DNA from: Pelomonas aquatica
GTDB lineage: Bacteria > Pseudomonadota > Gammaproteobacteria > Burkholderiales > Burkholderiaceae_C
Direction of reading: 5' to 3'
DNA length: 50,154 nucleotides
Assembly: GCF_026712205.1 (NCBI RefSeq)
Contig: NZ_JAPPUW010000031.1
Coordinates: 1 to 50,154, forward strand
The notes under the pieces: generated by a model
What the model was told of the DNA's origin: nothing
Seen by the model: the letters and a program-made list of their open reading frames with translations, nothing else
The model's database searches: none
Program-made: the position numbers and the translations under genes
Shown: positions 25,301 through 36,659 of the stretch, piece after piece
Numbering within the stretch: the first letter of the stretch is position 1
Layout: every line of letters begins with the position of its first letter

Positions 25301-27214
25301 ATGTTCGATTTCGTCCGCCAGCACAACCGCCTGTTCCAGTTCATCCTGCTGCTGCTGATCCTGCCGTCCTTCGCCTTCGTCGGCATGCAGGGCTACACGA
25401 GCATGATGGGCGGCGCCAACGCCGGCGTGGCCAGCGTCGATGGCCGCAAGATCACCCAGCTTGAATGGGACAACGCACAGCGCGAGCAGGCCCAGCGCAT
25501 CCGCAGCCAGAACCCGACCGTCGACGCCAAGCTGCTGGACACGCCCGAGATGAAGCACCAGGCGCTCGAAGGCCTGGTCACCGAGCGCACGCTGCAGGCC
25601 GCGGCGACGCACCAGCACTTCACGCCCAGCGTCGAGGCGGTCAACGCGCGGTTCTGGAACGACCCGCAGTTCGCCTTCCTGCGCAACCCCGACGGCACCG
25701 TCAACAAGGGCCTGCTCGCCGCCCAGGGCATGACGCCGTCGATGTTCATGGAGCGCCTGCGCCAGGACTACGGCCTGCGCCAGGTCTCGGCGCCGGTGGA
25801 AACCTCCGCCGTGGCCGGCGCCGCGGCACCCAAGCTCGCCTTCGATGCGCTGCTGCAGCAGCGCGAGGTGCAGCTGCAGCGCTTCGACCTCAAGGACTTC
25901 GCGGCCAAGACCAACCCCGGCGATGCCGAGCTCGAAGCCTTCTACAAGGACCCGGTCAACGCCGCCAGGTTCCAGCTGCCCGAATCGGCCCAGATCCAAT
26001 ACCTCGTGCTCGACATCGAGGCGCTGAAGAAGGACGTCAAGTTCACCGACGAAGATCTGCAGAACTACTACAAGGAAAACGCGTCGCGCTACGGCGTGCC
26101 CGAGGAGCGTCGCGCCAGCCACATCCTCATCAAGGTGGACCGCAAGGCCTCTGCCGAGGAGCGCGCCAAGGCCAAGGCCAAGGCCGAGGACATCCTGGCC
26201 CAGGTCCGCAAAAACCCCGCCGACTTCGCCGCACAGGCCAAGAAGAACTCGCAGGACGAGGGCTCGGCGGCCAATGGCGGCGACCTCGACTTCTTCAGCC
26301 GCGGCGCGATGGTCAAGGAGTTCGACGCCGCCGTTTACGCGATGAAGCAGGGCGAGATCAGCAATCTCGTCGAGACCGACTTCGGCTACCACATCATTCA
26401 GTTGACGGGCGTGCGCGGCGGCGAGAAGAAGCCCTTCGAAGCCGTGCGCGCCGAGGTCGAGGCCGAGGTGCGCAAGCAGCTCGCGCAGAAGAAGTACGCC
26501 GAGGTCGCCGAGCAGTTCGGCAACCTCGTCTACGAGCAGTCCGACAGCCTGCAGCCCGCCGCCGACAAGCTCAAGCTGCAGATCCAGACCGCCACCGTGC
26601 TGCGCCAGCCCCAGCCGGGCGCCGCCGGCCCGCTGGCCTCGGCCAAGCTGCTGGACGCCGTCTTCGGCACCGACGCGCTGCGCAACAAGCGCAACACCGA
26701 GGCCGTCGAAACCGGCGCGAACCAGCTCGTGTCGGCCCGCGTCGCCCAGTACAACCCGGCCCGCGTGCCGCCGCTGGCCGACGTGAAGGACAAGGTGCGC
26801 GAGCAACTCGTCAAGAAGCTTGCCGGCGAGCAGGCCCGCAAGGCCGGCGAAACCCGCCTGGCCGCGCTGAAGGCCAATCCGGCCGACGTGGCCGGCCTGG
26901 ACGCCGCGGTCAGCGCGTCGCGCGCCAAGCCGCAAGGTCTGTCGCGCACCCAGCTCGAAGCCGTGCTCGGCGCCGATGCATCCAAGCTGCCGGCCGTGGT
27001 CGGCGTGCCGGCCGATGACGGCGGCTACGTCGTCGTGCGCATCAACCAGCTGCAGCCGCGCGACGCCGCCGTCATCGACGACAAGCGTGCGGCCCAGCAA
27101 TACGCCGGTGCCTGGGCGCGCGCCGAGGCGCAGGCCTACCTGGCCGCACTCAAGTCGCAGTACAAGGCAGTGATCAAGGTCGCCACTCCTGCCTCGGCCG
27201 CAAGCGCCCCCTGA
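25301..27214 (+). CDS. ppiD: Peptidyl-prolyl isomerase, PpiD/SurA-like foldase
   Basis: This periplasm-facing, membrane-anchored folding factor has 637 aa. The N-terminal anchor is residues 11-29 (LFQFILLLLILPSFAFVGM), followed by the SurA_N/PpiD chaperone region. A parvulin domain lies at about 267-373 (RRASHILIKVD, ANGGDLDFFSRGAMVKEFD, ETDFGYHIIQLTGVR). A C-terminal chaperone-like region ends with an Ala/Lys-rich tail. PpiD helps outer-membrane and secreted proteins leave the Sec translocon. The length and layout match E. coli PpiD (623 aa, from memory). Gene order HU then foldase is conserved in proteobacteria. Confidence 0.93.
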   Translation: MFDFVRQHNRLFQFILLLLILPSFAFVGMQGYTSMMGGANAGVASVDGRKITQLEWDNAQREQAQRIRSQNPTVDAKLLDTPEMKHQALEGLVTERTLQAAATHQHFTPSVEAVNARFWNDPQFAFLRNPDGTVNKGLLAAQGMTPSMFMERLRQDYGLRQVSAPVETSAVAGAAAPKLAFDALLQQREVQLQRFDLKDFAAKTNPGDAELEAFYKDPVNAARFQLPESAQIQYLVLDIEALKKDVKFTDEDLQNYYKENASRYGVPEERRASHILIKVDRKASAEERAKAKAKAEDILAQVRKNPADFAAQAKKNSQDEGSAANGGDLDFFSRGAMVKEFDAAVYAMKQGEISNLVETDFGYHIIQLTGVRGGEKKPFEAVRAEVEAEVRKQLAQKKYAEVAEQFGNLVYEQSDSLQPAADKLKLQIQTATVLRQPQPGAAGPLASAKLLDAVFGTDALRNKRNTEAVETGANQLVSARVAQYNPARVPPLADVKDKVREQLVKKLAGEQARKAGETRLAALKANPADVAGLDAAVSASRAKPQGLSRTQLEAVLGADASKLPAVVGVPADDGGYVVVRINQLQPRDAAVIDDKRAAQQYAGAWARAEAQAYLAALKSQYKAVIKVATPASAASAP

Positions 27215-27376: not shown

Positions 27377-27865
27377 TCAGCCGACGTAGCCCAGCGGCAG
27401 CGCCGTCGTCAGCTTGAGTTCCTCCATCGCGAAACTGGAGCTCACGTCGCGCAGTTCGGTGCCGGCGATGAGGCGCTTGTAGACCCTGTCGTAGGCGGCG
27501 ATGTCGGGGACGACGACGCGCAGCAGATAGTCCACGTCGCCGCTCATGCGGTAGAACTCGACGACCTCGGGGATGGCCTGCACGGTGGCCTTGAAGGTCT
27601 CGAACCACTGCTGGCTGTGCGTGCTGGTGCGCACCGCGACGAACACCGTGACGCCGACGTTGACCTTCTGCGCGTCCAGCAAGGCCACCTGGCGGGTGAT
27701 GACGCCGGATTCCTTCAGCCTCTGGATGCGCCGCCAGCAGGGCGTCGTCGACAGGCCCACGCGTTGCGCGACCTCGGCGACCTGCAGTTCGGCGTCTTGC
27801 TGCAGGATTTCCAGGATTCGGATGTCAATGGAATCCAGTTTCATGTTGACGATGATATTCGGCAT
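27377..27865 (-). CDS. Lrp/AsnC-family transcriptional regulator
   Basis: This is a feast/famine-type regulator, 162 aa from ATG 27865 or 155 aa from ATG 27844. The first start has an AGAG about 7 nt upstream and gives Lrp-like length, so I use it. The winged helix is KLDSIDIRILEILQQDAELQ and VAQRVGLSTTPCWRRIQRL; the RAM ligand domain follows (EVVEFYRMSGDVDYLLRVVV). Lrp-type proteins bind amino acids and assemble as octamers. It is divergent from a cysteine desulfurase fusion, so a role in sensing cysteine or a related amino acid to control that gene is a reasonable guess. Confidence 0.92.
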   Translation of the reverse strand: MPNIIVNMKLDSIDIRILEILQQDAELQVAEVAQRVGLSTTPCWRRIQRLKESGVITRQVALLDAQKVNVGVTVFVAVRTSTHSQQWFETFKATVQAIPEVVEFYRMSGDVDYLLRVVVPDIAAYDRVYKRLIAGTELRDVSSSFAMEELKLTTALPLGYVG

Positions 27866-27970
27866 GAATTGCTCTGATGTGGCATTTGCATAGCCGAAGA
27901 TCGCAAACCGTTTTTGGCCGGCGCTGGCCACAATTCGCGGCAGTGCCATCACCGCCGCACGGCCCCGCCC

Positions 27971-30214
27971 ATGGAAATCTATCTCGACGCCAACGCCACG
28001 ACACCCGTCCTCCCCCAGGCCCGCGAGGCAGCCCTGGCCGCGATGGCCGAGGATTTCGGCAACCCCAGCAGCATCCACAGCACCGGGCTGAAGGCGAGGG
28101 CGCTGATGGACGGCGTGCGTGCCCGCGCGCGGCGCGTGCTGGGCGCCGGCAGCGGCAAGCTGCTGTTCCTGAGCGGCGCCACCGAGGGCATACAGACGGC
28201 CGTTCTGTCCACGCTGAGCGCACTGCGCGAACGGTCGCAGGGACCTGAGCTGCTGCTCTACGGCGCGACCGAGCACAAGGCCGTGCCCGAGGCGATCCGG
28301 CACTGGAACGCGCTGCTGGGGCTGGGCCTGCGGCTGCTGGCCATCCCGGTCGGCCGCGACGGCCGCCATGACCTGGCCTGGCTGCGCGAGCATGCGCCGC
28401 ATGCCGGCCTCGTCTGCACGATGGCGGCGAACAACGAGACCGGCGTCATCAGCGACCTGGACGGCATCGAGGCCGCCCTGGCCGGCAGCGCGGCGCTGTG
28501 GATGGTGGACGGCGTGCAGGCGCTGGGCAAGCTACCGCTGCGCCTGGCCGAGCGCCGCATCGACTACGCGCCGTTCTCGGGCCACAAGCTCTATGCGCCC
28601 AAGGGCATCGGCCTGCTGTATGTGCGCGACGGCGCGCCGTTCACGCCGCTGCTGGCCGGTGGCGGCCAGGAGGGCGCGCTGCGTTCGGGCACCGAGAACA
28701 TGTCCGGCATCGCGGCGCTGGGCGCCGTGCTGGCCGCGCTGGAGGAGGGCGGCAGCTTCCGCGACCCCGCGACGCAGGCCGCCTGCCGCGACCGCCTCGC
28801 CACCGCGCTGCAGCAGGCCTTCCCGGGCCTCGTCTTCAACGCGCCGCCCGAGCTCTGCCTGCCGACGACGCTGAATTTCGCGGTGCCGGGCCTCAGCTCC
28901 AAGCTGCTGCTGGATCTGTTCGACGCGGCCGAGATGCGCGTCAGCGGCGGCTCCGCCTGCAGTGCATCGAAGGCCCAGCCCAGCTATGTGCTGCAGGCCA
29001 TGGGCCTGCCGGCCTGGCAGGCGGCATCGGCCGTGCGGCTGTCGTTCGGGCCGGTGGCGGACGCCGCCTTCATCGACGAGGCCTGCGCGCGCATCCGCGT
29101 CTGCGGCGAGTCGCTGCGCGAAAGCTGCCTGGACCCGAGCGCGCCCGGCCATGCGCTGCCGGTCGACGGGCTGACGCGCTTCGTCGTCGACGGCGCCTGC
29201 TGCTATCTGCTGGCCGACGCCGCCAGCCGCCGCGCCGTCGTCATCGACCCGCTGCCCGAGCTGACCGGGCGCCTGGCGCAATGGCTGCGCTGCCAGGGCT
29301 ACGCGCTGGCGGCGGTGCTCGACACGCACAGCCATGGCGACCATGCCTCCTCCGCAGCGGAGCTGCTGGCTGCAACGCAGAAGCCGCGCGGCGATGTCGA
29401 CGGACTGGGCTGGCCGAGCGGCGCGGACGCGATCGAACTCGGCGCGTTGAGGCTGACGCGCCTGCACATCCCCGGCCACACGCAGGACTCCACCGCCTAT
29501 CTGCTCCACGACACCCAAGGGCTCCGCCTGGCCTTCGTCGGCGACACCGTGATGCCCGGCGCTTTAGGCCGCAGCGACTTCGAGCAGAGCGCGCCGCAGG
29601 CCTATGGCGGCTCGCTGCGGCGGCTGGAGCAGGCCGTCGGCCCGCGCACGCTGCTGCTGCCGGGGCACGACTATGACGACCGCTTCGCCAGCACGCTGGC
29701 CGTGGAGTGCGCGGCCCAGCCGCTGCTGGCCGATGTGCTCGGCGGCCGCCTGGACGACGCCGGCTTCGCGGCGGCCAAGGCGCAGCTGGAGCAGGGCCTG
29801 GCGCTGACGGCCTACCAGACCGTCGCCTGCGGCGCCCGCGTGGACAGCGGCTGCCCGCTGGCCTCCAGCGAGCTGAGCATGGCCGCGCTGACGCAGCTGG
29901 CCGGCGAGCACCCGGGCCTGCTGCTGGTGGACGTGCGCGAGCCCTATGAGCAGAGGCTGGGCCAGGCGCCGGAGCTGGGCGTGCCGGTGCGGCGCGAGGC
30001 CGTCGCGCTGTCGGGCCTGCCCGATGCGCTGGCGCGCTGGATCGCGCTGCCGGCCGGCACGCCCGTCGTGTTCTTCTGCCGCAGCGGCAACCGCAGTGCC
30101 CAGGCCGCGCAGGCGCTGCGCCGCCTGGGGCACGAGCAGGCCTGGAGCCTGGGCGGCGGCCTGGCGCTGTGGCCCCGCATCACGGCGGCGGCCGACGCGG
30201 CCTTCGCGATCTGA
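27971..30214 (+). CDS. Cysteine desulfurase / metallo-beta-lactamase / rhodanese fusion
   Basis: This 747-aa protein joins three sulfur domains. Residues about 1-380 are a class V aminotransferase of the NifS/IscS type (EIYLDANATTPVLP), with PLP Lys206 in SGHKLYAPKG and catalytic Cys330 in GGSACSAS. Residues about 395-600 are a metallo-beta-lactamase fold like persulfide dioxygenase (ETHE1), with His453, His455, Asp457 and His458 in DTHSHGDHAS and later ligands in IPGHTQD, VGDTVM and LPGHDYDD. Residues about 640-747 are a rhodanese with Cys703 in FFCRSGNRSAQ. Known chemistry would let one chain take sulfur from cysteine as persulfide, oxidise it to sulfite and transfer sulfur to or from thiosulfate. 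That pathway is inference. The start at ATG 27971 fits the domain edge. Confidence 0.93.
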   Translation: MEIYLDANATTPVLPQAREAALAAMAEDFGNPSSIHSTGLKARALMDGVRARARRVLGAGSGKLLFLSGATEGIQTAVLSTLSALRERSQGPELLLYGATEHKAVPEAIRHWNALLGLGLRLLAIPVGRDGRHDLAWLREHAPHAGLVCTMAANNETGVISDLDGIEAALAGSAALWMVDGVQALGKLPLRLAERRIDYAPFSGHKLYAPKGIGLLYVRDGAPFTPLLAGGGQEGALRSGTENMSGIAALGAVLAALEEGGSFRDPATQAACRDRLATALQQAFPGLVFNAPPELCLPTTLNFAVPGLSSKLLLDLFDAAEMRVSGGSACSASKAQPSYVLQAMGLPAWQAASAVRLSFGPVADAAFIDEACARIRVCGESLRESCLDPSAPGHALPVDGLTRFVVDGACCYLLADAASRRAVVIDPLPELTGRLAQWLRCQGYALAAVLDTHSHGDHASSAAELLAATQKPRGDVDGLGWPSGADAIELGALRLTRLHIPGHTQDSTAYLLHDTQGLRLAFVGDTVMPGALGRSDFEQSAPQAYGGSLRRLEQAVGPRTLLLPGHDYDDRFASTLAVECAAQPLLADVLGGRLDDAGFAAAKAQLEQGLALTAYQTVACGARVDSGCPLASSELSMAALTQLAGEHPGLLLVDVREPYEQRLGQAPELGVPVRREAVALSGLPDALARWIALPAGTPVVFFCRSGNRSAQAAQALRRLGHEQAWSLGGGLALWPRITAAADAAFAI

Positions 30215-30235: not shown

Positions 30236-31336
30236 TCATCGCGAAGCAGTCGGCGAGGGGCTGAGGGACTCGGCCACCCACTCGGCGATGGCCAGCGCCG
30301 CGGTCAGCCCCGGCGACTCGATGCCGAACAGGTTGACGAGGCCGGGCGCGACGTCGATGCGGAAATCCGCCGCCGGCTCGCCCGGGCCCGTGAGCTTGGG
30401 CCGGATGCCGCTGTAGGCCGGCTGCAGCGCGCCCTGCGGCAGGCCCGGCCAGTAGCCGCGCGCCTCGGCCTCGAAGGCCGGCGCCAGCGCGGGGTCGACG
30501 GCGTAGTCCAGCGTGGCCGGGTCGGTGCCGGGCAGCCATTGCACGTCGGGCCCGAAGCGCGCCTGGCCGCCCAGGTCCAGCGTCAGGTGCACGCCCAGGC
30601 CGCCGTCCACCGGCAGCGGGTAGATCAGGTGCTTGAACGGCGCCCGGCCGGCCAGCGCGAAATAGTGGCCGCGCGCAAAGCGCAGCGCCGGTGCGTCGCA
30701 ACCCAGCGAGCGGGCCAGTTCCGCCGCGAACAGCCCGGCCGCGTTGACGACGCAGCGCGCGCCCAGCTCGAAATCGCCCACTCGCAGCCGCCAGCCGCCG
30801 CCATCGCGCACGCCGCCGCTGACGCGGCTGGCCAGCGCGAGCGTGGCGCCGGCGTGCTCGGCGTCGCCCAGCAGCGCCGTCATCAGGCCGTGGCTGTCGA
30901 CGATGCCGCTGGACGGCGACAGCAGCGCGCCGGCGCAGTCCAGCGCCGGCTCCAGGGCCAGCGCCTGCGCGTGGTCCAGCAGCCGCAGGTCGTCCACGCC
31001 ATTGGCCGCGCCCTGTTCGGCAATGCGGGCCAGCCGCGGCAGGTCGGCCGCGCGTGTCGCGACGACGAGCTTGCCGCAGCGGCCGTGCGCCACGCCGCGT
31101 GCCGCGCAGTAGGCGTAGAGCAGGGCCTTGCCGCGCACGCACAGCCGCGCCTTCAGGCTGCCGGCGGGGTGGTAGAGCCCCGCGTGGATGACCTCGCTGT
31201 TGCGCGACGAGATGCCCGTGCCGATGGCGCCGGCCGCTTCGATGATGAGCACCTCGCGCCCGCGCAAGGCCAGCTCGCGGGCCACCGCGAGGCCGACGAC
31301 GCCGGCGCCGATGACGGCGATTTCCACGTGGTCCAT
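30236..31336 (-). CDS. FAD-dependent oxidoreductase, L-2-hydroxyglutarate oxidase-like
   Basis: This DAO-family flavoprotein has 366 aa. The FAD loop is [19 protein letters not shown], and the next conserved block, [15 protein letters not shown], resembles L-2-hydroxyglutarate dehydrogenase/oxidase (LhgO, L2HGDH). Other segments are [17 protein letters not shown] and AYSGIRPKL near the C-terminus. E. coli LhgO is longer (about 420 aa, from memory), so this is a shorter relative and the substrate is only suggested. It is downstream of aminopeptidase P on the same strand, with 18 nt between. It ends 21 nt from the convergent fusion gene. Confidence 0.85.
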
Positions 31337-31354
31337 CGCCGCCCAGGTCGGGGG

Positions 31355-33172
31355 TTAGGCCGCCAGCGGCTCCGTGCGCGCCAGCAGCCAGGCCAGCGCC
31401 GGGCCGCTGACCAGCGGCTGCAGGCGCGCACGCACGGTGGCGTGGTAGTCGTTCAGCCAGGCGATCTCGTCGGCGCGCAGCAGGCTGGCGTCGATGCAGC
31501 TCGTGGCGATGGGGCAGAGCGTCAGCGTCTCGAATTCGAGCATCTCGCCAAAGGCGTTCTTCTCCGGCGTGTCGATGGCGACGTTGAGCACCAGGTTCTC
31601 GATGCGCACGCCCCACTGGCCCGGCCGGTAGAGGCCCGGCTCGATGCTGGTGATCATGCCGGGCTCCATCGCCATGGCCGGCTCGGCGACGGCCTTGGAG
31701 ATGCTCTGCGGGCCTTCGTGCACATTCATGAAATAGCCCACGCCGTGGCCGGTGCCGTGGCCGTAGTCCAGGCCGTGTTCCCACAGCGGCGCGCGGGCGA
31801 TGGCGTCGAGCATGGGGCTGAGCGTGCCGCGCGGGAAGCGCGTGCGCGACAGCGCGATGGTGCCCTTGAGCACCAGCGTGTAGTCGCGCTTCTGCGCGGC
31901 GCTGACGCTGCCGATGGGCCAGACGCGGGTGATGTCCGTCGTGCCGCCGAGGTATTGGCCGCCGGAGTCGAGCAGCAGCAGGCCGTCGCCCTCGATCTGC
32001 GCGAAGGACTCGGGCGTGGCGCGGTAGTGGGGCAGGGCGCCGTTGGCCATCCAGCCGGCAATCGTCGAGAAGGACGGGCCGACGAAGCCGGGGCGCCGGC
32101 GGCGCGCGGCGGTCAGCCGGGTGTCGATGTCCAGCTCGCTCCAGCGCTCGCCGCGTGCCAGCGCGGCCTCGAACTCGGCATAGAACTCGCACATGGCCGC
32201 GCCGTCCCGGGCCATGGTCTCGCGGACGAACTCGGCCTCGGCGGCGGTCTTGCGGCTCTTCAGCAGCGTGCTGGGGTTGATCTGCTCGACGACGCTGACG
32301 GCAGCCGGCACAGCCTCGCGCAGGCCCAGCGTCACGCGGCGCGGGTCGATCAGCAGCCTGGCGCCGGCCGGCAGCGCGGCCAGGGTGGCTGCGGCCTGGC
32401 CGTAGGGCGCGAGCTGGATGCCGTCCGCGCTCAGGCGGGCGGCCGCGTCGGCCGGCACCTTGCCATCGCCGACGAAGAGGCGGCCGCCCTGCGCATCCAG
32501 CAGCAGGTGGGCGATGAAGACGGGGTTGCACTCGACGTCGCTGCCGCGCAGGTTCAGCAGCCAGGCCACATCGTCCACGGTGGAGACGAGATGGTGGGTG
32601 GCGCCGACCGAGGCCATGGCCTGGCGCACGCGGGCCAGCTTGTCGGCGCGCGACACGACGGCCTGCGGGAGCTGGTGCTCGTAGATGGCGTCGGCGGGCA
32701 GGCCGGGGCGGTCGTCCCAGGCGGCCTGCAGCAGGTCCACGTCGCTGCGCAGCGTGACGCCGGCACGCTGCATCGCGGCGCGCAACGTGTTCGCCAGCGC
32801 CAGGCCCAGCACCTGGCCGTCCACGGCCAGCGCCTGGCCGGGCTGCAGCGTCTTGGCGATCCAGTCGATGTAGAGCGTCGAGGCGCCCGAGTTCATCTTC
32901 TCGAGCTGGATGCCGCTGCCCGCGATCTGGGCCTCGGCCTGGGCCCAGTAGCGGCTGTCGGCGAACAGCGCGGCGCGGTCGCGCGTGACGACCAGGCTGC
33001 CCACCGAGCCGTTGAAGCCCGACAGCCATTCGCGGCCCTGCCAGCGGCCGGGCAGGTATTCGGAGAGATGGGGGTCGCTGGAGGGCACGAGCACGGCGTG
33101 CAGGCCCTGGGCGATCAGCGCGTCGCGCACGCGCTCGATGCGCAGTCGGGTTTCGGAGGTGCGGGTGTCCAT
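31355..33172 (-). CDS. Xaa-Pro aminopeptidase (M24B), long form
   Basis: This metallopeptidase removes N-terminal residues before proline. It has 605 aa, the long three-domain form also found in eukaryotes. Two creatinase-like N-terminal domains (about 1-310) precede the pita-bread catalytic domain. Metal ligands are visible in LDSGGQYLGGTTDITRVW (two Asp), GTGHGVGYFMNVHEGPQ (His) and the two C-terminal glutamates near SIEPG and TLCP. The start at 33172 (MDTRTSETRLRIERVRDALI) fits the family. It is likely cytoplasmic, as no signal peptide is seen. Confidence 0.94.
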   Translation of the reverse strand: MDTRTSETRLRIERVRDALIAQGLHAVLVPSSDPHLSEYLPGRWQGREWLSGFNGSVGSLVVTRDRAALFADSRYWAQAEAQIAGSGIQLEKMNSGASTLYIDWIAKTLQPGQALAVDGQVLGLALANTLRAAMQRAGVTLRSDVDLLQAAWDDRPGLPADAIYEHQLPQAVVSRADKLARVRQAMASVGATHHLVSTVDDVAWLLNLRGSDVECNPVFIAHLLLDAQGGRLFVGDGKVPADAAARLSADGIQLAPYGQAAATLAALPAGARLLIDPRRVTLGLREAVPAAVSVVEQINPSTLLKSRKTAAEAEFVRETMARDGAAMCEFYAEFEAALARGERWSELDIDTRLTAARRRRPGFVGPSFSTIAGWMANGALPHYRATPESFAQIEGDGLLLLDSGGQYLGGTTDITRVWPIGSVSAAQKRDYTLVLKGTIALSRTRFPRGTLSPMLDAIARAPLWEHGLDYGHGTGHGVGYFMNVHEGPQSISKAVAEPAMAMEPGMITSIEPGLYRPGQWGVRIENLVLNVAIDTPEKNAFGEMLEFETLTLCPIATSCIDASLLRADEIAWLNDYHATVRARLQPLVSGPALAWLLARTEPLAA

Positions 33173-33257
33173 GGCCAGGACCTTTTCTGAGTCGAAGCCG
33201 CAAGTTTAGTTTTGTAGCCCCGGCCCTGCCGTTCGGCAGGGGGCGGGGCGTGCCGTC

Positions 33258-34466
33258 TCAGGCCAGGGCCCGGGCGGGCGTCAGCAGCCGCTCCATCAGC
33301 TCGCGCACGCTGCGGATCTGGCTGCCGAAGGGCAGGGCACCGCTGCCGCGGAAGAACAGGCCCTTCTTCACGTCGCCGCGCAGCGCGGCGGCGAGCTGGT
33401 TGTCGATGCAGAACTGGCCCCAGTCCTTGAAGCCGTCGCGCAGGCCGCACTGGGCCAGGCAGTCGAAGGCCTTGGTGCAGCGCTGCTTGACCTGGGCGAC
33501 GGCTTGCAGCCGGCTCTCCAGGCGCAGATAGGTCTTCAGCCAGGGCGTGGCCACGGCGCGCGCCGGCAGGCCGGCCACGCTGGTGAACTCGATCATGTCC
33601 TCGTCGCGCGCCTCGGCCAGCACGCGCTTGAACTCGGCGTCGGCATCGCCCTCGGTCGTCACGGCGAAGGGCGTGCCCAACTGCACCGCGTCGGCGCCCA
33701 GGGCCTGCAGGCGGCTGATGTCCTCGAAGCTGCGCACGCCGCCGGCCGCGATCAGCGGGATCTCGCGCTCGATGCCGGCCTGGCGGAAGAATTCCTTGCA
33801 GGCGGGCAGCACCTGGTCGAAGTCGAAGCGGCGGTCATTGACGTCGGCGATGCGCGCGGCGCCCAGGTGGCCGCCGGCCAGGCGCGGGTGCTCGATGACG
33901 ATGGCGTCCGGCAGGCGCTTCTTGCGCTCCCATTTCTTGACGATGAGCTGCACGCCGCGCGCATCGCTGAGGATGGGGATGAGCAGGGCCTTGGGGTGGC
34001 CCTGGGCCAGGTCGGGCAGGTCCAGCGGCAGGCCCGCGCCGACGACGACGGCATCCACGCCCGCGGCCAACGCGCGCTTGACCGAGGTCGCGTACTCGCT
34101 GACGGCACGCATCACGTTCAACGCCACCAGGCCGCGGCCCTGCGAGCGCTCGCGGGCGCCGGCGATTTCGCGGTCCAGCGCCACGAGGTTGGCCTCGTTG
34201 ATGCGGCGCTTGGCCTCCTCGCCGGCATTGCAGCCTTCGGTGGCTTCCATCAGGTCGGGGTGCAGGCGGCGCAGGTCCACCGAGCTGATCGTGCCCATGC
34301 CGCCGTCGGCGGCCACGGCCCCGGCCAGGCGCTGGGCGCTGACGCCCACGCCCATGCCGCCCTGCACGACGGGCAGCAGCTCGCGCCCGCCCAGTTGCAA
34401 CGGCTTCAGGCCGGAGCGCACGAGCAGGGCGCCGAGTTCTTGGGAGATGTGCGGGAAGGGGTTCAT
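33258..34466 (-). CDS. Nitronate monooxygenase-like FMN protein
   Basis: This protein of about 402 aa belongs to the NPD/nitronate monooxygenase group of FMN TIM-barrel enzymes, which oxidise nitronates or reduce quinones. Visible segments are PVVQGGMGVGVSAQRLAGAV, DAVVVGAGLPLDLPD, IVIEHPRLAGGHLG and PLIAAGGVRSFEDISRLQALGADAVQLGTPF (given here in pieces of the barrel). The ATG at 34466 (MNPFPHISQELG) is preferred over a longer frame. The C-terminus has several cysteines (RCTKAFDCLAQCGL), which may hold a metal or structural disulfide. It sits between kynA and aminopeptidase P; no link to tryptophan breakdown is evident. Confidence 0.88.
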   Translation of the reverse strand: MNPFPHISQELGALLVRSGLKPLQLGGRELLPVVQGGMGVGVSAQRLAGAVAADGGMGTISSVDLRRLHPDLMEATEGCNAGEEAKRRINEANLVALDREIAGARERSQGRGLVALNVMRAVSEYATSVKRALAAGVDAVVVGAGLPLDLPDLAQGHPKALLIPILSDARGVQLIVKKWERKKRLPDAIVIEHPRLAGGHLGAARIADVNDRRFDFDQVLPACKEFFRQAGIEREIPLIAAGGVRSFEDISRLQALGADAVQLGTPFAVTTEGDADAEFKRVLAEARDEDMIEFTSVAGLPARAVATPWLKTYLRLESRLQAVAQVKQRCTKAFDCLAQCGLRDGFKDWGQFCIDNQLAAALRGDVKKGLFFRGSGALPFGSQIRSVRELMERLLTPARALA

Positions 34467-34574
34467 CGGCGGGCCAGGTTGACGAGCAGAAACGTCGCAG
34501 CCTAGGCCTTGCCGCCGACCGTCGCCTTGACCCAAGTCATCGACAGCGCAAGTTAGGCGCTTGCTCTCACCCTC

Positions 34575-35402
34575 TCAGAGCTCGGTGCGCAGCGTCCACA
34601 GCTCCGGGAAGAGCACCACGTCCAGCATCTTGCGCAGATAGCTGACGCCGCCGGTGCCGCCGGTGCCGCGCTTGAAGCCGATGACGCGCTCCACCGTCGT
34701 CACGTGCCGGAAGCGCCAGAGGCGGAAGGCGTCCTCAAGGTCCACCAGCTCCTCGCCCATCTGGTAGAGGTCCCAGTGGTCCTGCGGCGCGCGGTAGACG
34801 GTCAGCCAGGCCTGCTTGACGCCCTCGTCGGCGGCATAGGGCTCGGTCCAGTCGCGCTGCAGCCGCGCGGCCGGCACCGCGATGCCGCGGCGGGCCATCA
34901 GCTTCAGCACCTCGTCGTAGAGCGATGGCGCCTCGAAGGCCTCCTGCACCTGGGCCAGCAGGTCGGGCCGGTGCTCGTGGGGCTTGAGCATGGCGGCGTT
35001 CTTGTTGCCCAGCATGAACTCGATGCGCCGGTACTGCGCGCTCTGGAAGCCGCTGCTCTTCGCCAGATAGGGCCGGATGGCGCTGTACTCGGGCGGCGTC
35101 ATCGTGGCCAGCACGTCCCAGGCATGCACCAGCTGCTCCATGATGCGCGACACGCGGGCCAGCATCTTGAAGGCCTCGGGCAGGCGGTCGGCGGCCACGT
35201 TGGCGACCGCCGCGTGCAGCTCGTGCAGCATCAGCTTCATCCACAGCTCCGAGGTCTGGTGCTGCACGATGAAGAGCATCTCGTTGTGGTCGGGCGAGAG
35301 CGGCTTCTGCGCGCTCAGGATGGCGTCGAGCTGCAGGTAGTCGCCATAGCTCATGTCCCGGGAGAAATCGAGCTGGGCGCCGTGGTGTTCCAGGGGCGTC
35401 AT
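34575..35402 (-). CDS. kynA: Tryptophan 2,3-dioxygenase
   Basis: KynA is a heme enzyme that opens the indole ring of tryptophan to give N-formylkynurenine. The 275-aa protein matches the family length and shows [56 protein letters not shown] and [20 protein letters not shown] with the C-terminal [12 protein letters not shown]. It is the third gene of the kynB-kynU-kynA set, starting 3 nt after the kynU stop. Together the three convert tryptophan to anthranilate and alanine. Confidence 0.97.
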
Positions 35403-35405
35403 GGG

Positions 35406-36659
35406 TCAGGTCACCTTTGAGCGGCTGGTGAATTCGGGGGCGTCCCAGGATCGGGTGGCGACGATGTCCGCCAGCGTGTCCACCGCGCGCACCACGTCGG
35501 CGAAGCCGTTGTAGAGCGGCGCGAAGCCGAAGCGCAGCAGCTCGGGGTCGCCGGCGCGGAAGTCGCCGATGAAGCCGCGAGCGATCAGCGCCTGCATCAC
35601 CGCATAGCCGTCCGTGCCGCGCGGCAGGCTGAACGACACCTGCGAGCCGCGCATCGCCGCGTCGCGCGGCGTCGCGATGACGGCGCCGGGCACTCGTGCT
35701 TCCACGCTGTCGATGAAGGCTTCGGTCAGCGCCAGCGACTTGTTGCGCAACGCCTTCATGCCGCCCAGCTTCTGGGCGGCGTCGAAGACGTCCAGCGCCG
35801 TGTCCAGCCCCGTCGCGGCCAGCACCGCGGGCGTGCCGCACTGGTACTGCTGGATGCCCGGCGCGGGCTGGTAGTCGCTGTCGAAATCGAAGGGGTTGGC
35901 ATGGCCCATCCAGCCGGTCAGCGGCTGCCAGACCTGGCCCTCGTGGCGCGGGTGCATCCACACGAAGGCCGGCGCGCCGGGGCCGCCGTTCAGGTACTTG
36001 TAGCCGCAGCCGATGGCGAAGTCCGCCGCGGCGCCGAGCAGGTCGATGGGCACCGCGCCTGCGCTGTGGCACAGGTCCCAAACGGCCAGCGCGCCGGCCT
36101 GGTGGGCCCAGCGCGTCAGCAGGCCCATGTCGTGCATGCGGCCGCTGCGGTAGTTCACATGCGTCAGCATCAGCACCGCGCAGCGCTCGTCCAGCAGCGG
36201 CGGGATGTCCTCCGGCCGCTCGGCCAGGACCAGCTCGCCGCCATGCGCGCGCGCCACGCTCTGCGCGATGTAGTTGTCGGTCGGGAAGTTGCTGCGCTCG
36301 CTCACCACCACGCGGCGCTTGCCTTGCTGCAACTGCAGCGCCGCGTGCAGCACCTTGTAGAGGTTGATGGAGGTCGAGTCCGCCACCAGCACCTCTCCCG
36401 GGCGGGCGCCCAGCCACGGTGCCAGCCGGTCGCCCAAGCGGCGCGGCAGGTCGATCCAGCCGGCGGTGTTCCAGCTCTTGATGAGGTCCCGGCCCCATTC
36501 CTGCTCCACCGCGCGCCGGATGCGCTCGGGCGTGGCGCGGGGCAGGGCGCCGAGCGAGTTGCCGTCGAGATAGGTCACGCCGTCGGGCAGCGTGAAGAGG
36601 TCGCGCAAGCTGCGCAGGGGGTCGGCGGCGTCGAGCCGCTTGGCGTCGTCGATGTTCAT
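35406..36659 (-). CDS. kynU: Kynureninase
   Basis: KynU is a PLP enzyme that cleaves kynurenine to anthranilate and alanine. It has about 417 aa. Family blocks include YLDGNSLGALPRATPERI, ADSTSINLYKVLHAAL, the PLP-binding Lys221 in GCGYKYLNGGPGAPAF and QPLTGWMGHANPFDF. The start ATG 36659 overlaps the kynB stop by 4 nt (ATGA), so the two are coupled. Confidence 0.97.
   Translation of the reverse strand: MNIDDAKRLDAADPLRSLRDLFTLPDGVTYLDGNSLGALPRATPERIRRAVEQEWGRDLIKSWNTAGWIDLPRRLGDRLAPWLGARPGEVLVADSTSINLYKVLHAALQLQQGKRRVVVSERSNFPTDNYIAQSVARAHGGELVLAERPEDIPPLLDERCAVLMLTHVNYRSGRMHDMGLLTRWAHQAGALAVWDLCHSAGAVPIDLLGAAADFAIGCGYKYLNGGPGAPAFVWMHPRHEGQVWQPLTGWMGHANPFDFDSDYQPAPGIQQYQCGTPAVLAATGLDTALDVFDAAQKLGGMKALRNKSLALTEAFIDSVEARVPGAVIATPRDAAMRGSQVSFSLPRGTDGYAVMQALIARGFIGDFRAGDPELLRFGFAPLYNGFADVVRAVDTLADIVATRSWDAPEFTSRSKVT

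Follow-up and report, generated by a model that had tools for sequence, protein, structure and literature searches.

Can a single bacterial protein both take the sulfur from cysteine and oxidize it? A stretch of 50,154 nucleotides from Pelomonas aquatica (contig NZ_JAPPUW010000031.1, referred to in its entirety as the window) raises this question: it encodes a protein of 747 amino acids in which a cysteine desulfurase, a persulfide dioxygenase (PDO), and a rhodanese are joined in one chain, and the gene is accompanied by a divergently oriented gene for a DecR-like regulator of the Lrp family. On balance, we favor the reading that the fusion is a cysteine-inducible enzyme that would remove cysteine sulfur oxidatively, its activities, sulfur route, and induction being deduced from homology, conservation, and gene context. 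The domains and the type of regulator are known individually; we did not find the combination described, and it looks like an undescribed form of cysteine-sulfur disposal. Targeted literature searches, from which subscription journals were mostly out of reach, returned no description of a desulfurase-PDO-rhodanese fusion.

Three sulfur-enzyme domains in one chain

The open reading frame extends from 27914 to 30214 on the forward strand, and translation from the ATG at 27971 to the stop at 30214 gives the 747 residues. All three Pfam matches exceed their curated cutoffs: Aminotran_5 (175.5 bits, residues 3 to 366), Lactamase_B (48.6 bits), and Rhodanese (PF00581, 41.6 bits, residues 646 to 734). 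Against the sequences of the PDB, the N-terminal part matches cysteine desulfurases (E = 2.4e-53), and residues 410 to 735 match BpPRF, a PDO-rhodanese protein (E = 3.3e-22). The three domains occur together in 119 of 120 homologues (120 listed of 3,414 found), the remaining one being a 659-amino-acid record (P0021) that is 100% identical to the window protein. The architecture is not a product of chance. The closest named homologues belong to Roseateles and Pelomonas; the source genome measures 5.12 Mb. Pfam, PDB matches, alignments, and homologues all agree with the original prediction, which had described three fused sulfur-enzyme domains with their key residues present.

Group I cysteine desulfurases, those of the NifS/IscS type, combine an aminotransferase class V fold with a lysine that binds pyridoxal 5'-phosphate (PLP), with histidine, aspartate, and glutamine residues, and with a loop that carries the catalytic cysteine. 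The N-terminal domain of the fusion has the residues expected of this group, and H102, N155, D180, Q183, K206, C330, and R356 are kept in 82 of 82 rows. The fold, the PLP lysine, and the cysteine loop are shared with NifS and IscS, but the window protein joins the desulfurase to a PDO and a rhodanese and falls below the NCBIfam equivalog cutoffs for NifS (264 versus 530.75 bits), IscS (184 versus 643.2), and DndA (216.7 versus 480). The source genome also encodes IscS, in what appears by eye to be an isc operon, and Fe-S assembly is therefore not necessarily the task of the fusion.

The C-terminal domain is a rhodanese by its Pfam match and by its loop, CRSGNR. The desulfurase cysteine and the rhodanese cysteine and arginine (Cys703 and Arg708) are kept in 130 of 130 homologue rows. 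One relative (L117) has the loop CQSGQR in place of CRSGxR.

Active site and fold of the fused dioxygenase

The middle domain retains the iron site of a PDO, with His453, His503, and Asp525 as ligands and His455, Asp457, His458, and His566 in the second sphere, roles that are transferred from those reported for hETHE1 (PMC4383860). All seven of these residues are kept in 68 of 68 unique intact rows, where intact means that H453, H503, and D525 are present. Cys330, His455, and Cys703 had been singled out in the original prediction, and all three exist; by homology, however, His455 is not an iron ligand, because it aligns with the nonligand His81 of hETHE1. An arginine and a tyrosine that contact glutathione in the active site are reported to be common to all PDO types (PMC6060420), and Arg534 and Tyr568 match them in 67 and 63 of the 68 unique intact rows, respectively. 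Cys620, present in 66 of the 68, corresponds to the conserved type-I cysteine (C247 of hETHE1).

The residues with which type-I PDOs bind glutathione are not kept. The position of the glutathione-binding arginine (R190 of AcPDO, which our own alignment places at hETHE1 R214) holds leucine, methionine, or isoleucine in 68 of 68 unique intact rows, and the LPxPK segment, with its glutathione-binding lysine (K212 of AcPDO), has no counterpart in the alignments of the fused PDO. The K212A variant of AcPDO is reported to retain about 10% activity. Judged by these residues, the fused PDO seems to have kept its chemistry and to have given up part of the known hold on glutathione; it may therefore act on something other than glutathione persulfide. 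Cysteine persulfide would be an unusual substitute, since one characterized type-II PDO is reported to have no detectable activity with it (PMC12856154).

Structural searches with the whole predicted chain gave, among the matches listed, only desulfurase-type chains, and the C-terminal half was therefore folded separately. Predicted alone, it folds like PDOs, with BpPRF as the top Foldseek match. It is very improbable that the middle domain is a glyoxalase II-type hydrolase rather than a dioxygenase: the match to GloB in NCBIfam that would suggest a hydrolase is weak (58.6 bits against a cutoff of 200.8), and the domain has both the iron site and the predicted fold of a PDO. The cutoff for Blh, a bifunctional sulfurtransferase/dioxygenase (NF040641), was also missed (36.1 versus 625 bits).

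Among PDB entries, BpPRF (5ve3, 5ve4, and 5ve5) comes closest to the C-terminal half, by sequence as well as by Foldseek, and has the same order of PDO and then rhodanese, but it has no desulfurase domain, and its NPR and LPxPK-type residues are absent from the fused PDO. Two further structures, 3r2u, which we take to be CstB of Staphylococcus aureus, and 3tp9, likewise carry a metallo-beta-lactamase domain and a rhodanese on one chain; they lack a cysteine desulfurase and are less similar to the fusion than is BpPRF.

The divergent regulator and the upstream region

The neighboring regulator matches AsnC_trans_reg (73.9 bits) and HTH_24 (66.4 bits), and it would grow from 155 to 162 amino acids if translated from the in-frame ATG that lies upstream, at 27865. 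It is 48% identical to Escherichia coli DecR/CyuR and 38% identical to E. coli Lrp, which are 33% identical to each other, and it is the best of 12 DecR matches in its own genome (157.2 versus 110 bits). Of the two proteins compared, it is closer to DecR than to Lrp and is better called DecR-like. Of 111 unique rows, 62 have such a gene adjoining the fusion (divergent in 55, tandem in 4, and convergent in 3), including 14 of 17 forms that lack the middle domain and one gammaproteobacterium. The earlier suggestion that this Lrp-type neighbor may sense cysteine is plausible, since it is DecR-like and recurs as a divergent partner.

Two unrelated enzymes that degrade cysteine are reported to share DecR, alias CcdR or YbaO, as their cysteine-responsive regulator; one of the two is encoded next to it, and in P. 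ananatis the regulator, as in the window, adjoins its cysteine-degrading target (PMC5423876). The regulators of CyuA (YhaM) and CcdA (CdsH) are thus related to that of the window, but their targets differ in kind from the fusion, releasing pyruvate, ammonia, and H2S where the fusion would release alanine and oxidized sulfur. By analogy, the fusion would join CcdA and CyuA as a third system that degrades cysteine under DecR control.

Palindromic pairs in 39 divergent related loci peak at the offset of the RGMATNNNATKCY element, 5.3 standard deviations above the mean of 75 offsets, and a copy of this element in the window is a candidate site for the regulator (Table 1). A GCA-n-CANAAT block recurs by eye upstream of the fusion across loci. 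In many relatives a CANAAT-like block lies 11 to 16 nucleotides (nt) before the ATG, a spacing that would suit a leaderless mRNA; the block of the window lies about 40 nt upstream. Neither a sigma-70 consensus promoter nor a terminator was found between 27700 and 30500.

Distribution of the fusion and loss of its middle domain

In a scan of named genomes that covered the best 80 of 561 relatives, the loci belonged mostly to Burkholderiales genera. Fusion matches occur in at least 47 of 299 genomes of the family (E <= 1e-100), at least 5 of 300 of the order (E <= 1e-60; one is only a partial desulfurase match), and at least 10 of 398 of the phylum (E <= 1e-90), frequencies that are lower bounds from two or three scored candidates per genome. 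Another 13 loci of the scan of named genomes came from Shewanella, Pseudoalteromonas, and Psychrobium and from two other records of gammaproteobacteria; we refer to these 13 as the Alteromonadales group.

The 130 homologue rows comprise 82 with all three iron ligands, 31 in which the middle domain is decayed, and 17 without it. Tyr568 is replaced in six of the 82 intact rows, and in one of the six Arg534 is as well; the domain may thus be impaired in some of these rows too. The HxHxDH motif is partly lost in two further gammaproteobacterial fusions. A quick tree was built from 111 unique rows without the middle domain, and 32 of its 108 inner branches are unsupported. The state of the middle domain changes on it at least 8 times, with 4 changes forced by supported branches; when the Alteromonadales group is taken as the outgroup, loss is the simpler reading. 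The 17 desulfurase-rhodanese proteins without a PDO (L103 to L119, of which L103 was checked against Pfam) belong to the same gene family as the window fusion and differ from it in the missing middle domain.

This pattern underlies the main rival explanation, sulfur delivery with an optional overflow valve. The constant function would be transfer from desulfurase to rhodanese and on to a biosynthetic acceptor, such as a thiolation system, with the PDO removing surplus persulfide. The invariance of the desulfurase cysteine and of the rhodanese cysteine and arginine agrees with such a function, as does the frequent decay or loss of the PDO; among 84 loci, moreover, the fusion is followed by a TrhO/YceA-like gene in 11 and by a trxB-like gene in 4 (names by eye; L055_7 and L045_11). 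We nevertheless regard it as rather unlikely: a DecR-type regulator suggests a response to cysteine rather than to the needs of biosynthesis, the loci examined show no acceptor gene as a constant neighbor, and the genome already has IscS.

Some genomes carry two fusions. Roseateles caseinilyticus P7 has two intact ones (L019 and L045), and R. toxinivorans has one intact fusion with the regulator and one decayed fusion without it (L026 and L068); these copies are possibly subfunctionalized paralogues.

Standalone dioxygenases in fusion-bearing genomes

Among genomes of the family, a standalone type-I PDO is present in 5 of 21 with an intact fusion and in 22 of 26 with a decayed or absent middle domain (P = 3.4e-5), compared with 103 of 252 that have no fusion. 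A tree-aware test gave the same direction, with only 4 supported independent pairs and a median P of 0.5 (3 pairs in another run). Standalone type-II PDOs occur in 16 of the 21 and 11 of the 26 genomes, respectively, and all 47 fusion-bearing family genomes have one type or the other. The idea, drawn from the type-I contrast, that the fused PDO replaces a standalone one was dropped because those 16 intact genomes, that of the window included, carry a type-II PDO.

When all genomes tested for both types are considered, neither standalone PDO is present in 14 of 54 genomes with an intact fusion, whereas none of the 34 genomes whose middle domain is decayed or absent lacks both. Eleven of the 14 belong to the Alteromonadales group (11 of its 12 tested). 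This contrast agrees with a functional fused PDO whose loss is possible only in genomes that have another PDO.

Two standalone type-I proteins that were inspected (L159 and L160) are, by eye, PDO-rhodanese fusions, and the C-terminal half of the window fusion aligns end to end with one of them, from a bacterium of the same family (31% over 355 columns). Together with the type-I contrast, these proteins would suit co-expression without channeling, in which the three activities are linked by free glutathione persulfide and are exchangeable for separate proteins. We consider this unlikely, as the type-I contrast is not phylogenetically secure, most intact genomes have a type-II PDO instead, and the fused PDO lacks the type-I glutathione-binding residues.

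The same end-to-end alignment bears on a further alternative. To judge by the title of their paper, Motl et al. reportedly proposed in 2017 that BpPRF acts in thiosulfate or persulfide assimilation; applied to the fusion, the rhodanese would take the sulfane sulfur of thiosulfate and the PDO would make sulfite, with the desulfurase as a second feed. Such a role is improbable given that the desulfurase cysteine is invariant while the PDO is expendable and that the regulator is DecR-like.

Proposed function

In the oxidative removal of cysteine sulfur that we favor, the desulfurase domain would convert cysteine to alanine and leave a persulfide on Cys330, as its homologues do. The joint conservation of the two cysteines suggests that this sulfur may pass to Cys703 of the rhodanese, to a small thiol, or to both. 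The iron site, by its residues and fold, would use O2 to oxidize persulfide to sulfite, which the rhodanese may combine with another sulfane sulfur to form thiosulfate. The divergent DecR-like protein would sense cysteine and switch the fusion gene on. In light of the lost residues, the persulfide that is oxidized probably binds in a different way than in glutathione-persulfide dioxygenases. A more specific version, which we advance only tentatively, is a glutathione-independent protein-persulfide dioxygenase: the fused iron site would oxidize the persulfide of Cys330 or Cys703 in cis, or cysteine persulfide, within a third DecR-controlled cysteine-degrading system.

Several observations weigh against oxidative removal. 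Of 130 homologue rows, 48 have a fused PDO that is decayed or no longer there, and its repeated loss implies that oxidation in cis is not essential; a three-step channel, as originally envisaged, cannot on these numbers be an obligatory and constant function of the family. The genome of the window has a separate type-II PDO, so that the fused PDO is one of at least two there. The contrast in genomes with neither standalone PDO rests mainly on one clade, falling to 3 of 42 versus 0 of 34 (P = 0.25) without the Alteromonadales. In 12 of 13 Alteromonadales-group rows the fusion has no regulator gene next to it, and the same holds for 7 of 7 further gammaproteobacterial loci, one of them apparently on the contig of L084. 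Moreover, CyuPA of E. coli reportedly ferments cysteine (PMC9040844), so control by DecR does not necessarily imply detoxification. Finally, the operator-like palindrome of the window is an imperfect copy; E. coli CyuR is likewise reported to bind an imperfect palindrome (PMC11408624).

Features and neighboring genes

The features of the locus are collected in Table 1.

Table 1. Coordinates of the fusion, its domains and residues, the regulator, and upstream elements within the window
Feature	Position	Strand	Basis
Fusion gene, 747 amino acids: cysteine desulfurase, PDO, rhodanese	27971..30214	+	Open reading frame, Pfam, PDB matches, homologues
Cysteine desulfurase domain, residues 3-366	27977..29068	+	
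Desulfurase PLP Lys206	28586-28588	+	
Desulfurase catalytic Cys330	28958-28960	+	
Type-I PDO-like domain, residues ~396-622	29156..29836	+	Boundaries by alignment
PDO Fe ligands His453, His503, Asp525	29327-29329, 29477-29479, 29543-29545	+	By homology
Further PDO residues Arg534, Tyr568, Cys620			
Rhodanese domain, residues 646-734	29906..30172	+	PF00581
Rhodanese loop CRSGNR: Cys703, Arg708	30077-30079, 30092-30094	+	
DecR/CyuR-like Lrp-family regulator, 155 amino acids (MKLDSID...)	27377..27844	-	Pfam, DecR identity
Candidate regulator site: imperfect palindrome GGCATGAATTGCT, a copy of the recurrent RGMATNNNATKCY element	27861..27873	.	Putative function
GCAAACCG...CACAAT block upstream of fusion, tentatively a possible promoter	27903..27934	+	By eye

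Besides the DecR-like gene, no constant functional neighbor was found in the 84 loci and the 7 further gammaproteobacterial loci, only local ones. These include a psd-like gene (by eye) and, near one fusion (L169), a PALP-domain, cysK-like gene. In the window, Pfam identifies a SurA/PpiD-like peptidyl-prolyl isomerase at 25301-27214 (+) and, downstream of the fusion on the opposite strand, genes for an FAD-dependent oxidoreductase, an M24 peptidase, and a nitronate monooxygenase at 30236-34535 (-). Farther on, at 34575-35402 and 35574-36425 (-), a tryptophan 2,3-dioxygenase (PF03301, 242 bits) stands beside a frame that matches PF00266 and by its position looks like a kynureninase; the pair would be genes of the kynurenine pathway.

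Implications

If oxidative removal of cysteine sulfur is correct, the fusion would be an oxidative counterpart to the cysteine-degrading enzymes that release H2S, and a reactive persulfide may stay on one chain. It would also sharpen annotation, as several source records say only cysteine desulfurase or aminotransferase class V. The forms with an intact, a decayed, or a missing middle domain would then constitute a natural series for testing the value of the fusion in channeling.
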